This document shows, in pieces, positions 1 to 10,958 of a stretch of 57,699 nt of DNA; the first letter of the stretch is position 1; each line of letters begins with the position of its first letter. Made by a program: the position numbers and the translations under genes. Under the pieces are notes generated by a model, which searched no databases, was not told where the DNA came from, and saw only the letters and a program-made list of their open reading frames with translations. Source of the DNA: Armatimonadota bacterium (GTDB taxonomy: Bacteria > Armatimonadota > Fimbriimonadia > Fimbriimonadales > Fimbriimonadaceae); assembly GCA_027451905.1 (NCBI GenBank), contig DAIDHV010000005.1:1-57699 (forward strand), read 5' to 3'.

Positions 1-1602
1 TGACGCTCGTCGTTAGGTAGTTCTCAATGTAGCTGATCGTCGTTGGCGACATATTGTGGCCCTGACCGCAGACCAATACCATGTCAGTAGCGGCGGGGTT
101 GCCATTAGCGCGGTCAGTATTCTGCCACTGCCTGAAGAGATTGGCTATTTGCTCAATATAAGAGTTCTCAGCACCTTGCCAGCCTCCGAAGTTGTTAACT
201 AGGGCAAGGATTGTTGGTTTGGCGTAGGCGTAGGAAATATCGAGCGGTGGCCCATTATTTTCCGACTGCCCGCTTCCATTAGGCTCAAAATAGGCGGGTT
301 GGGCTTCAAAGGTACCGTTGCTGTTGATGGGATTTCCATTGCCATCCTTGAGATCCCAAGCAAAGGTAATCATGTTGGGAATGCCAGGATCGATGCCCTG
401 GGGGCGATACCAGGTTAAATTGCGCATATTGGCAGGGGTGCCTTGCCCAATATCAGTGGAAAGGGCAATTTGGACTTCATCGGTTCCGGTCGGATAAAAC
501 ATCTTAAAGGTCGGCCAGCGGCCGGTGGTCCCATCTGCCAAAATATCGCTCTGGTAAATTGGCATTAGGTACGCGTCGCTAACGTTAATAGGCTGCGAGA
601 TTTGAGGGACGGGCCCGGAATCATTGATCAGTTGTAATGACCCATAGGGGTAGACCTCGGAGGGATCGTAGCTAACGTAGGTACCAGCGGTCTGCCCGCT
701 GGGGTTATTGGGATCGCCGCCGAAGGCGCCGTCAGCTGCATTGCTAATCACGTTCTCGCCGGTTGCGGGACCGGTCATCGTGTTCCCAAAATTAAGCTCT
801 TGTACCAGCTGAGTTCCCGTCGAGGCGGGGATGTCCCATTCCGTGCTTAGTTGAGGATACCCAGATGGCATCGTTCCAAAGCTCAAATAGGATCCTGTGG
901 TTGGGGAAGTTGCATTAGCTGATTCGGGGCTCGTCGCGAGAGTAATGGTGTCATCAACGAGTTCCTGGCTATAAATGTACTGAGAGCCGGGGCTTACAGG
1001 ATCAACATACACGTCGCCGGGCACTAGAATTGTTGTAGGGTTCGAGCCGTCGGGAAGGGACCTTATCAGCAAGTGAGTAATGGCTTGCGAAGGCACCCCC
1101 TCCGGCAGTTGCGCCCACCTAATGATATTGCCCCCGTATGCGGCTGAAACGGTGGGAGCAGCTAAGTTGAAATTGTATCCAGAGGGCACTACCGTCAGAT
1201 CGTCAGCGGTTGCATAGCCGTCTGGGGTTTCTGCCCTTATTTGCCCAAATAAAACTTGGCTGGCACCAGTTGAATTTATGCCAATCTTGAATTGCGCCAC
1301 CGATTGCCCTGCGGGAACCGTTACTGATGATGGGACAATGATTTCTGGCGATGAGCTACTGATTGCGATGACTTCGTTCGTTACAGGAGACCCCCACAGA
1401 AATAAAGGACATTCGTCCCCGGAGTTTCCCACCACTGCATCCGATTTTAAGGTCATAGATTTAATAGAGGGCTGGGTTTGGGCGATTGCTTTGAGAGGCA
1501 TCAATGCACCGGCAGCAAAGGTAATCAGGGCTAGGCAAAAACGAGCAACTCTAGCTCTGAGTTGAGTTGAGTTGAGTTGAGTTGAGGCGAATGGATATTC
1601 AT
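1..1602 (-). CDS. Secreted protein of unknown function, 3' end outside the window, out of frame at a TCAAC repeat
   Basis: A reading frame runs open on the minus strand from about 1585 to the window edge, more than 500 codons without a stop. The ATG at 1602 has a GAGG Shine-Dalgarno at 1610-1613 and an AT-rich -10-like stretch further upstream. Reading from it, five TCAAC repeats follow and the frame then stops after 23 codons. If one repeat is removed, the same ATG joins the long frame and gives a good signal peptide: an RARVAR basic part, a CLALITFAAGALM hydrophobic core and an AIA/Q cleavage site. No ATG, GTG or TTG opens the long frame upstream of the hydrophobic core. The mature part is Ser/Thr/Gly/Asn-rich like an exported surface protein. 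I recognise no catalytic domain. The most likely reading is a phase-variable gene caught in the OFF state. Confidence 0.75.
1561..1585. repeat. Pentanucleotide tract (GTTGA)x5, i.e. TCAAC x5 on the coding strand
   Basis: Five perfect tandem copies lie between the start codon (1602) and the signal-peptide core of the secreted-protein gene. Copy numbers 4, 7 and 10 keep the ATG in frame with the long ORF. The present five copies, and also three or six, end in an early TAG. The layout matches the CTCTT repeats in the signal-peptide region of Neisseria opa genes. Confidence 0.85.
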
Positions 1603-1840
1603 GGCAAGACCTCGATTAAAGACAATATACGACATTTTTGCTAGGTTTCAACCGCTTTTTCGAGAAAAGTTAGAAATTTAACAATTGAGCACGGAGCATT
1701 GCTTTAAGGGCAGCTCGTACCCGCTTGGAGGAATCGCATGGTTTATTTGGTTGCGTGGTCCCGAGAAAGGCAACCCTGTGCCCACATCAAGGAATCTTCT
1801 GCTCCAGTCAAAGCCCTGCTCTATTCCATATAAGCGAAAA

Positions 1841-7772: not shown

Positions 7773-8960
7773 ATGGCACATAGAATTAATAAATTGGTTA
7801 CTGCGGCGTCAGCCTTGGGCTTCGCTGTCAGTCCCCACGTCGCATATGCAGTTGGACCCATTAGGATCAAACGCATAGCTCGCCCCTACAACTTGCCGCT
7901 TGGCAAAAGAGGGTAGCGAGTTCAAGCCGCGCTTCGTGCCGCCTTCTTAAATGTCAACACTGGCCTAGTTTTGTCCTACTGCACCTACCGACAATATCCC
8001 GCATTCACAGTAAGAAACCTAAAACTTTTGCGGCCTCAAACAAACAAGCCTTTGACAAGACTGGGTTTGGTGCAATTGTCCGATAGTTTTGGCAAGGCTC
8101 TCTTAAAGCTTCCTGGGTCTTACGCGCTTGTGAGCAGGCCCTCAACGGGGGTGGCTCGCGCCGCCCTCTCTGGGGAGCAGTCACTCCTGTCCTTTGGCAG
8201 CGTTGGAAACGGGAAGGGGTATCTTTGTGCAAGTCAATTTTCTGATCTAACGCGAGAACTGCTGGCAAGTAGTTACGCAGAATGCTTGAAGGGTGTCTCA
8301 GGCGATTTATATTCAGGGGGATCTCATACGTATCTCGCCCCTTCAATCGGGCTTAAGATACGCTATCAATCAGACGGCGAAAATGTTACAGATTGGGTGG
8401 GGGTGGGCTCGCGTTTGCCTCAGGCAAATTTCAATGATGGACCCGGCAACTCCCTCTCTGAGGATCCCAACGGGGTTGTCGACTTTGGCAGCAAGGGGCG
8501 ATACGAAGCTCTTCAGGATCTGATTGCAGATGTTAATGAATGCTGTGGGTACGACCTTTGCTACGGGGCGGATGACGCCCAACGAATGATCTTTATCAAA
8601 GGTTGCTTTACGAAGGCCGATCTCCTTAAGGCCCTCAGTGAGGCAATTGCAAGCTACCCAATCGTTGAGCCGTATCGCGGTCAGAGCCAATCACTGCACC
8701 AGCTTTTGGTTAGATTGGCAAAAAGTTGCGGTAACGGAACTTTGAGGGACTTGTACCTTGCCGTCCTTTCGGGGCAGACCGCTCAAACAACCCTCGGATT
8801 TCTGCAGAACCAGGGGTACATGACCTCGACAGACGTCCCCCCAACAACCTCAGTCGAAGTGGAAGGAGTCGAACTCGGCTTCACTTTAGGAACTGGCAAC
8901 TTCCGTATAGATGGAACAACCGGTATGCCGACGGGCCAAAATCTGGTAGTTTCCCCTTGA
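7773..8960 (+). pseudogene. Secreted protein of unknown family, interrupted by an in-frame amber codon
   Basis: A promoter (TTACGA at 7728-7733, TATACT at 7750-7755) and an AGGATCGGAG ribosome site lead to the ATG at 7773. It encodes a signal peptide ending at about residue 26 (SPHVAYA). After 47 codons a TAG (7914-7916) interrupts the frame. The same frame then continues open to TGA at 8958-8960. The residues just after the TAG (VQAALRAAF...) align with VEATLKGLF in the intact paralogue at 9789-10958, so one protein was encoded across the stop. Further shared blocks are FIKGCFTKADLLKAL against FIKGRFTTSELLNGL, and LYLAVLSGQT against IALATLNGQT. Restart at TTG 7971 would give 329 residues without export signal. 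The function is unknown. The gene lies inside the tRNA-flanked segment. Confidence 0.7.
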
Positions 8961-9009: not shown

Positions 9010-9349
9010 AGTATTCTGTACTTTTATATTTAAGTCAAGTTGAAGTTCGGGCTGATTTCAGATCTGAAGCCAATAGGGCTAAATTAATGCTGATTACGAG
9101 AACAAGTAGAGTCCTTTAGGTTGCTTAAGAGAGCTCTGCCGCATCTAATTTGACATCGAATCCAATAGTGCACCGGCTTTCCAGTCTCTTCAAATTATGC
9201 TTTTCGTAATTCCCGCCCCTCAAATATCCTGGCTTTAAGTTTTCGGCTCCTCAATAGCTCCCACGCACGTGCCAACAAGCCCAAAAGTGAAAATGGCGGG
9301 ACCTTGCACTTGACAAAAGTATATCTGGGGGGGGGGGTAGTCTCGCCAT
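9010..9349. other. Gene-free stretch right of the tRNA duplication
   Basis: There is no coding frame, RNA gene or strong hairpin until the promoter of the next gene at 9310. Composition is AT-richer than the neighbouring genes, as expected for island DNA. Confidence 0.5.
9310..9343 (+). promoter_or_regulatory. Promoter with an 11-G tract between -35 and -10
   Basis: A consensus -35 TTGACA (9310-9315) and a -10-like TAGTCT (9338-9343) are separated by 22 bases. Eleven of these are a pure G run (9327-9337). The -10 is six bases before the ATG at 9350, the same geometry as other putative leaderless genes in this window. With about six Gs the spacer would be the optimal 17. Slippage in the tract could therefore tune expression, as known for Neisseria porA and opc. 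The G run might instead act as a crude ribosome site. Confidence 0.5.
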
Positions 9350-9763
9350 ATGAAGAACTTTTTAACAGTTTTTGCACTCTCTTGTTGTATGGCGCCTGCC
9401 TATTCTTTTGGACAATCCGCACCTCAAGCACCAGCTTTTTCCCAGTGGGTCACTGTTTCACAGCCCAATTCCAGTGGTGGCATAGACGGAGATCATCGGC
9501 AGGGTTTCACCTTTGAAGAAGCGCCGACATCGGGCGGATGGCTGGTATCACCAATCGAAATGGTTACCGACGACAATAGCAGAAGCCACTCCTACACCGT
9601 GGGCCCATTTCCCGCAGGCGTCAAGTCGATTTCTTTCTTCCTGTGCAATTCCACGTACTCGATCGATTGGCTTAACAATGTCATTCTGAAATCCACCCCA
9701 CCTTCCTTGGAAGTGCCTTATAACGAAGACCAGTACCAACACCTCAACATGTCAATTCCGTAG
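9350..9763 (+). CDS. Small secreted protein of unknown function
   Basis: The product has 137 residues, with a clear signal peptide (MKNFLTVFALSCCMAPAYSFGQ, cleavage near residue 21). A soluble part rich in Ser, Pro and aromatic residues follows, including a pair of cysteines near the signal end and a single Cys in FFLCNSTYS. I recognise no domain. It sits in the island between the tRNA-Leu duplication and the intact paralogue at 9789, 25 bases upstream of that gene, so the two may be cotranscribed. Expression may depend on the G tract in its promoter. Confidence 0.65.
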   Translation: MKNFLTVFALSCCMAPAYSFGQSAPQAPAFSQWVTVSQPNSSGGIDGDHRQGFTFEEAPTSGGWLVSPIEMVTDDNSRSHSYTVGPFPAGVKSISFFLCNSTYSIDWLNNVILKSTPPSLEVPYNEDQYQHLNMSIP

Positions 9764-9788: not shown

Positions 9789-10958
9789 GTGATTGCATTG
9801 TATTTCCTGTGCGCAACCTATCGCCACCGTGTAGCTCCACAAATAATGAATTTATTTGTAGAAGCACCGCTCAATAGGGAGCAAAAATCTGTTGAAGCGA
9901 CTTTGAAGGGCCTGTTCAAAGACGTTCCTTCTAGCCTAGTCCTTCGGATCGGAACGAAGGAATCAATTCCCGATTTAGGTTGGGCAAGCAAGGTTACCTC
10001 TACAGTGAGAAAGCATGGGACAGAGGCTGATCTTTATAGAGAGGCAAACTCACTCGGAAGGACCTTGGTGCGGGTTACGTCGGGCAAGCAGAAACAAACT
10101 CTTAGCCCGGCAGTGGTATTTGCCATGTGCACTTACCCCTCTGCAAATGACCTGACGAACACGCTATTCAAAGAGGAGCCATTCCAGGAATTGGCAGAGA
10201 AAACAATCCGCAAATCCGGGGCAAGTTTCTGTTCCTTTTCCCAGTTTTCAAGCGGAGACCGAGAGGAACTTATGGGGCTTCTCAGTTCAGCCCAAACCGG
10301 TTGCTACTCCGACGTCTTGCGAGGCGGCAATAACGTTTATGTTGCTCCCTGCCTTGAATTTCACGAAACTTACAGTGAAAATGGTGAGGCGGTATCTAAC
10401 TGGGTTTCCCTGCCGTCGGTTCGGCTTCCTCTCCCCAAAAGCACTGAAAACCAAATGGCGCCACTAGGAGCCAATCATCTTGGCTCTTTATATTTCGGAG
10501 ACAAGGGATACTATACTTCCATCAAGGCGGTGATATCATTTGTTGAAAAATCAAAGGGAGTCCACGTTCTTTGGGACCATTCTAGGAAGAATACTATGGT
10601 TTTTATTAAGGGTAGGTTTACCACTAGCGAACTGCTCAACGGCCTCTACCTAGCACTAAAAGTACCCAAATTTCGAGTAAGCCAATCTTTGTACTCCGTA
10701 GAGGCTTTTAAACGAAAATGGATGACCAAATATATTCTCAATTTGCCAAATTCGAAGCTAAAGGACATTGCCCTTGCTACGCTCAATGGCCAAACATCAA
10801 TTGTAACAAACGCGGTACTGAACAATTATAATCTATCGGCTGCCCCTCAAGACGATGCTAGTATGCCGGTAAGAATTGACACCATTTCAGTAGGTTTTGA
10901 GGTTGGCAATGGGGCAGTTTATAATAACTTGGATAACACCTTAACGTACAGTAACTAA
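9789..10958 (+). CDS. Protein of unknown family, intact paralogue of the interrupted gene at 7773
   Basis: The product has 389 residues from a GTG start at 9789, preceded by a weak AGGA. The N-terminus (MIALYFLCATYRHRV) is short and only partly hydrophobic, so the true start or export signal is uncertain. It shares collinear blocks with the cassette gene: CSFSQFS near residue 145, the YSENGEAVSNWVSLPSVRLP stretch, GDKGYYTSI, MVFIKGRFTTSELLNG, LATLNGQT and a C-terminal ISVGFEVGNG. The pattern of small beta-rich blocks suggests a repeated or surface role, but no function can be named. It follows the small secreted protein and may be its operon partner. Base composition is more AT-rich than that of the core genes. 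Confidence 0.7.
   Translation: MIALYFLCATYRHRVAPQIMNLFVEAPLNREQKSVEATLKGLFKDVPSSLVLRIGTKESIPDLGWASKVTSTVRKHGTEADLYREANSLGRTLVRVTSGKQKQTLSPAVVFAMCTYPSANDLTNTLFKEEPFQELAEKTIRKSGASFCSFSQFSSGDREELMGLLSSAQTGCYSDVLRGGNNVYVAPCLEFHETYSENGEAVSNWVSLPSVRLPLPKSTENQMAPLGANHLGSLYFGDKGYYTSIKAVISFVEKSKGVHVLWDHSRKNTMVFIKGRFTTSELLNGLYLALKVPKFRVSQSLYSVEAFKRKWMTKYILNLPNSKLKDIALATLNGQTSIVTNAVLNNYNLSAAPQDDASMPVRIDTISVGFEVGNGAVYNNLDNTLTYSN

Follow-up and report, generated by a model that had tools for sequence, protein, structure and literature searches.

A TCAAC repeat between the start codon and signal peptide of a secreted-protein gene as a probable contingency locus, now OFF, in an Armatimonadota bacterium

Five exact copies of TCAAC separate the start codon from the signal peptide of a secreted-protein gene at one end of the window (by which we mean the whole stretch of 57,699 nucleotides that was analysed). 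We interpret this locus as a simple-sequence-repeat contingency locus that undergoes phase variation by slipped-strand mispairing and is at present OFF, and we give this reading a probability of about 0.78; the change in copy number is inferred, with no reads to document it. Under the proposed mechanism, mispairing during replication would add or remove TCAAC units. Cells with four or seven units, a minority, would translate and export the protein, and the rest would make only a short peptide. As relatives of the gene and unrelated secreted-protein genes have tracts at the same site, the locus would belong to a set of randomly switched exported proteins, and the gene is most likely one of several such genes in a little-studied bacterial group.

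The start region of the gene is made up of the following elements, all on the minus strand.

1624 to 1651, minus strand: promoter-like element, TTGAAA, 16 nt, TATATT (consensus scan, 10/12 matches)
1610 to 1613, minus strand: GAGG, putative ribosome-binding site 7 nt 5' of the ATG (sequence)
1600 to 1602, minus strand: ATG start codon of the window gene (sequence)
1561 to 1585, minus strand: five exact copies of TCAAC (TRF and copy-number translation series)
1531 to 1533, minus strand: TAG reached by the ATG frame after 23 codons at the present five copies, OFF (copy-number translation)
1481 to 1558, minus strand: signal peptide RARVARFCLALITFAAGALMPLKAIA/Q in the long frame (sequence; by eye and by analogy with homologues)

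The promoter-like site at 1651-1624 lies directly 5' of the GAGG and ATG, and shuffled versions of the region contain a mean of 0.3 such sites. Partial copies flank the five complete ones, and TRF reports a period of 5, 5.8 copies and a 100% match over 1558-1586. Period-5 runs of this kind are expected by chance about 8e-9 times in the whole 2.87 Mb genome of the window (G000), where this locus is the sole place with at least three TCAAC copies. The unit is five bases long, so each copy gained or lost shifts the reading frame, and since it is read as S-T-Q-L-N in all three frames, the tract is never itself the source of a stop. With the present five copies the ATG frame gives MNIHSPQLNSTQLNSELELLVFA and then stops, after 23 codons. 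In a computed series of one to eight copies the frame was open at 1, 4 and 7 and stopped at 2, 3, 5, 6 and 8; in other words, ON corresponds to a copy number congruent to 1 modulo 3, and the present five to OFF. In these respects the locus fits the definition of a contingency locus: a perfect tandem repeat within the 5' coding region, with a unit that is not a multiple of three, whose copy number alone (by computation) toggles between the long frame and an early stop.

In the long frame the next ATG, GTG or TTG comes only near the end of the signal peptide, as a TTG (1504) with an ATG behind it, so the export signal cannot be made from an alternative start. These results bear out a preliminary description of this DNA, which had placed the five copies between a well-placed ATG (GAGG at 1613-1610) and a signal peptide, had derived a stop after 23 codons from five copies and a junction with the signal peptide from four, and had found no other start that opens the long frame. 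Between window positions 1546 and 1564, on the minus strand, the last TCAAC unit is able to pair with a nearby downstream GAGTTG, which is followed by CTCGTTTTTG. This weak terminator-like hairpin, of which 0.4 are expected by chance, could end transcripts in the untranslated OFF state.

Behind the repeat lies a long frame, whose parts were assigned as follows.

2 to 1558, minus strand: long coding frame of a secreted protein, at least 516 codons, ended by the contig edge (alignment, profile matches, codon usage)
about 1471 to 1196, minus strand: Ig-like domain (alignment with homologues; borders approximate)
about 1192 to 905, minus strand: Fn3-like domain (alignment and profile matches to Fn3 structures; borders approximate)
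about 517 to 290, minus strand: FlgD-Ig-like domain (alignment and profile matches to FlgD structures; borders approximate)
about 223 to 2, minus strand: start of the C-terminal domain (alignment with homologues; borders approximate)

With a signal peptide in the joined frame and Ig, Fn3 and FlgD-Ig domains, the gene meets our criterion for a surface or secreted product. The predicted product is an extracellular multidomain protein, in which Ig-like, Fn3 and FlgD-Ig domains are followed, in the full-length homologues, by a C-terminal domain. Alignment of those homologues revealed conserved GHG and D-x-C motifs, which in the window gene would lie beyond the contig end. The motifs resemble those of clan CD (caspase/gingipain-like) cysteine peptidases, a likeness of sequence only, and no Pfam or PDB match to this C-terminal region of the homologues was found. 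A structure prediction for the window protein alone was uninformative (mean pLDDT 33).

The principal rival explanation is a simple pseudogene: slippage would have added one unit to the repeat of a gene that is now dead and drifting. The present frame is indeed broken, scans of species genomes found no close orthologue for comparison, and the 3' part of the gene is missing, because the window and contig C5 share their first base and the gene runs off that end; a search for the missing part elsewhere in the G000 genome gave weak matches at most. Against this, the frame runs to the contig end without a stop in 516 codons, in keeping with the more than 500 expected from the preliminary description, and its codon usage is gene-like: it scores 0.123 per codon, 31 long ORFs of the window score 0.157, and the other two frames of the region score below zero. 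The frame decay that had been named beforehand as the sign of a pseudogene is absent over these 516 codons.

Homologues of the gene bear on the same question. A search with the window gene across 61 genomes returned mostly single Ig-like domains. One match (L005), in a one-contig genome of another genus of the same family (G010), aligns over both the Ig and Fn3 domains and has its parts in the same order. Its start region consists of ATGATCGCTCTGTTCGCTGCCGTTCTGATGTTGGCG, C13 and AGCGTATCTTGAG in succession, which puts the C13 inside the signal peptide; the 649-codon frame behind it is out of register with the ATG, and 11 or 14 C would be needed to restore it. Three further homologues came from a search with L005 as the query. 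The first (L023, in G064) has C16 at the first bases of its contig and, immediately behind it, a signal peptide and a frame open for 833 codons. The second (L024, in G062) has GGAGG, a TTG start and an intact signal peptide without a tract, and the third, in G066, is a 1717-aa frame, also without one. Fn3 and FlgD-type Ig domains are common to the homologues, all of which are distant (about 25% identity). Two homologues, then, have a putatively hypermutable tract of another kind (C13, C16) where the window gene has TCAAC, and this recurrence of slippery tracts at one place also argues against a simple pseudogene. Tract-free homologues exist too, at least one of which (G062), with its clear start, reads as clearly intact; it supplies the intact relative whose absence would have counted against phase variation. 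One observation concerns G010 itself, where C31 followed by poly-A stands at one end of the assembly and C13/C18 near the other (L083, C1:2652225; L072, C1:365-414). These end tracts are probably a sequencing or library artefact, and homopolymer lengths in G010 should therefore be taken with caution.

Pattern searches of the whole G000 genome found just eight G/C tracts of at least nine bases, and in six of the eight cases the tract stands at the 5' end of a gene for a secreted protein. Three of these genes are OFF and one is ON. The six tracts, and the product of the gene behind the one inside the window, are as follows.

C2:417576: G9 in the signal peptide of the first of two paralogues, ATGAAGAATATTCTGATT then G9, out of frame
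C2:420273: G9 in the signal peptide of the second paralogue, ATGAAGAATATTCTGATT then G9, out of frame
C1:447152: C10, preceded by an ATG with a ribosome-binding site and followed by the signal peptide of a 1238-aa reading frame, out of frame
C6:8863: C11 immediately downstream of a signal peptide, in frame (ON)
C2:225659: G10 ending 13 nt 5' of the ATG of a small secreted-protein gene
9327 to 9337 of the window, plus strand: G11, 12 nt 5' of the ATG of another secreted-protein gene, a candidate second switch
9350 to 9763 of the window, plus strand: 137-aa protein with a signal peptide, downstream of the G11 (no Pfam match)

Under our strict signal-peptide rule 4/8 tracts qualify, against 2.3% expected (p = 2e-5). 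The two adjacent paralogues on C2 have diverged to 44% identity and both keep long open frames behind an out-of-frame G9, as dead genes would not. On this evidence we consider it unlikely that the window gene is merely a pseudogene.

Two arrangements in G000 deserve mention in their own right. The C2 paralogues belong to two tandem two-gene units (C2:417558-422867; L181 9559-14868), each consisting of a secreted protein with a G9 tract and a secreted partner of 308-317 aa, of which a further copy lies at C5:188476 (L182 477-1430); the first ~57 nt of the two G9 genes are nearly identical and their bodies just 40-44% alike. In the window, the G11 stands behind a TTGACA and could act as a second switch through promoter spacing or ribosome binding. 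The gene that follows it is flanked by two ORFs on the plus strand, 7971-8960 and 9789-10958, which appear to be paralogues of each other; the one tested (9789-10955) had no Pfam match.

A less probable alternative is an error of assembly or consensus, with a true copy number of 4 and a gene that is constantly on. Assemblies are prone to errors in repeats, and the contig end is only 1.6 kb away; however, short reads easily span a 25-base repeat with a five-base unit, a miscount by a whole unit is unlikely, and the repeat would remain a hypermutable element even so. We regard this alternative as quite improbable.

Beyond G000, the contingency-locus reading was set against a sample of 108 distinct G/C tracts of at least ten bases from the window's genome and related genomes, with the same strict rule. 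The rule is home-made and the tract lengths hinge on assembly quality; a looser version had a background of 13% and was not relied on. Tracts fell inside signal peptides in 7/108 cases against 66/6480 random positions (6.7x, p = 2e-4), with one of the seven genes (L121) doubtful, and just 5' of the ATGs of secreted-protein genes in 6/108 against 1.3% of random positions (4.6x, p = 0.003). A second secreted family, unrelated to the window gene, is represented by five mutually homologous genes from genera g11 and g26, with tracts of G12 (L075 and L138), G11 (L143), C11 (L148) and G13 (L150) in their signal peptides. Only one pair of orthologous tracts between species occurs in the sample (L132/L161, both G10). 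Across the 85 family genomes, at least three TCAAC copies occur elsewhere only in G001, where six copies lie near the 5' end of an ORF, out of frame; whether this ORF (265 aa) is a real secreted-protein gene is uncertain.

The phase could be read in 13 genes: 2 are ON and 11 OFF, and both possible shifts occur among the latter. This fits random phases, as so few ON genes have a probability of about 0.14 by our own arithmetic. It is least likely of all that the proteins are expressed despite the broken frame, whether through slippage of the ribosome or of transcription or through a restart after the 23-codon ORF without the signal peptide. In favour of this, the poly-G and poly-C of the relatives could plausibly serve as slip sites, and a TTG-ATG pair lies about 27 nt past the OFF-state stop. 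Against it, the TCAAC repeat has no homopolymer run for slippage, different genes would require shifts in different directions, and a restart would leave a protein that is plainly extracellular without its signal peptide. A constant frameshift, or a homopolymer count that is constantly too low, was likewise rejected across the sample, because no single shift suits all the genes and two are in frame.

Tract counts were also rejected as evidence, because base composition alone predicts a few G10 tracts in each genome. Their number is near this prediction, and support for selection is restricted to the position of the tracts and the excess of longer ones. Several contigs have a long poly-G/C at their very start or no more than a few bases in (G064:C22, G068:C73, G068:C104, G075:C132, G017:C3, G022:C229, G023:C126 and G004:C5), as if assembly breaks there, whether through heterogeneous length or through sequencing difficulty. 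Separately, two loci 42 kb apart on C15 of G025 (L138 and L139) have one G12 signal-peptide cassette, 98% identical over 112 nt, on different bodies; L139 has AAG in place of ATG, resembling a silent copy.

Missing mismatch repair was tried as a cause of the long tracts and rejected, MutS being present in G000 and in 83/85 family genomes. Five copies is short for a contingency repeat. Loops of five bases largely escape MutS repair, so that a short pentanucleotide could act as a switch in a cell that has MutS. Further points count against the contingency locus: the homologues are all distant, homopolymer lengths can be miscounted in assemblies, and neither read data nor a second strain demonstrates a change in copy number. 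The evidence on such variation is indirect, in that homologous genes differ in the kind, length and phase of their tracts.

Taken together, phase variation caught in the OFF state, as the preliminary description proposed, remains the best reading in view of the frame that is intact as far as the contig end, the C13 and C16 of the homologues and the same design in other secreted-protein genes. What the assemblies contain resembles a repertoire of contingency loci built on simple repeats and directed at signal peptides, with the switching itself not shown. We lean, by a little more than an even chance, towards a wider suggestion of a phase-variable secretome across the family, in which it is the export signals that are switched: unrelated secreted proteins would have repeatedly gained tracts (poly-G, poly-C, TCAAC) in or beside their signal peptides, and switchable cassettes would be shared across different bodies (G000, G025).

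Most known cases of phase variation by simple repeats come from host-adapted bacteria, which are exposed to immune systems. If our reading is true, this repertoire belongs to a probably free-living, hardly studied lineage, which raises the question of what selects random switching of exported proteins there, with phage, predators and the cost of secretion as possibilities. It would also mean that a tract plus a signal peptide is a simple signature, countable directly in metagenome reads, and that many such genes would carry truncated, start-less or pseudogene annotation. Among the papers searched, none combined "phase variation" with Armatimonadetes or Armatimonadota; the mechanism is of the known opa type, and the lineage and repertoire appear unreported.

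Campylobacter tracts are mostly in genes for surface-modifying enzymes and the genus is not known to have MutS repair, whereas the G000 tracts are in signal peptides and MutS is present. Like the Campylobacter phasome, in which long G/C tracts put several genes per genome in or out of frame (PMC6321876), G000 has multiple G/C-tract genes with the frame broken or restored. In the survey of Orsi et al. 2010, tracts near the 5' ends of genes give an early stop on slipping, reversibly in inlA, and poly(A)/(T) of 3-7 bases is overrepresented and poly(G)/(C) is not (PMC2831843); the tracts described here, by contrast, are poly(G)/(C) of at least nine bases and a pentanucleotide.

The parallel with the opa genes of Neisseria, already drawn in the preliminary description, is apt. 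In opa, the copy number of a CTCTT pentanucleotide in the leader-peptide region sets the frame, at several loci per genome (PMC3960869). The window locus differs in its repeat unit, in the position of the repeat ahead of the hydrophobic core of the signal peptide, in homologues that use homopolymers in place of the pentanucleotide, and in that switching is not yet observed. Its product is a multidomain Ig/Fn3/FlgD-Ig protein rather than an outer-membrane barrel, and no Pfam match of the window protein to any such barrel was found, so homology to Opa is not supported. What the two systems have in common is a pentanucleotide at the 5' coding end, in or next to the signal peptide, several loci per genome, and an exported product.
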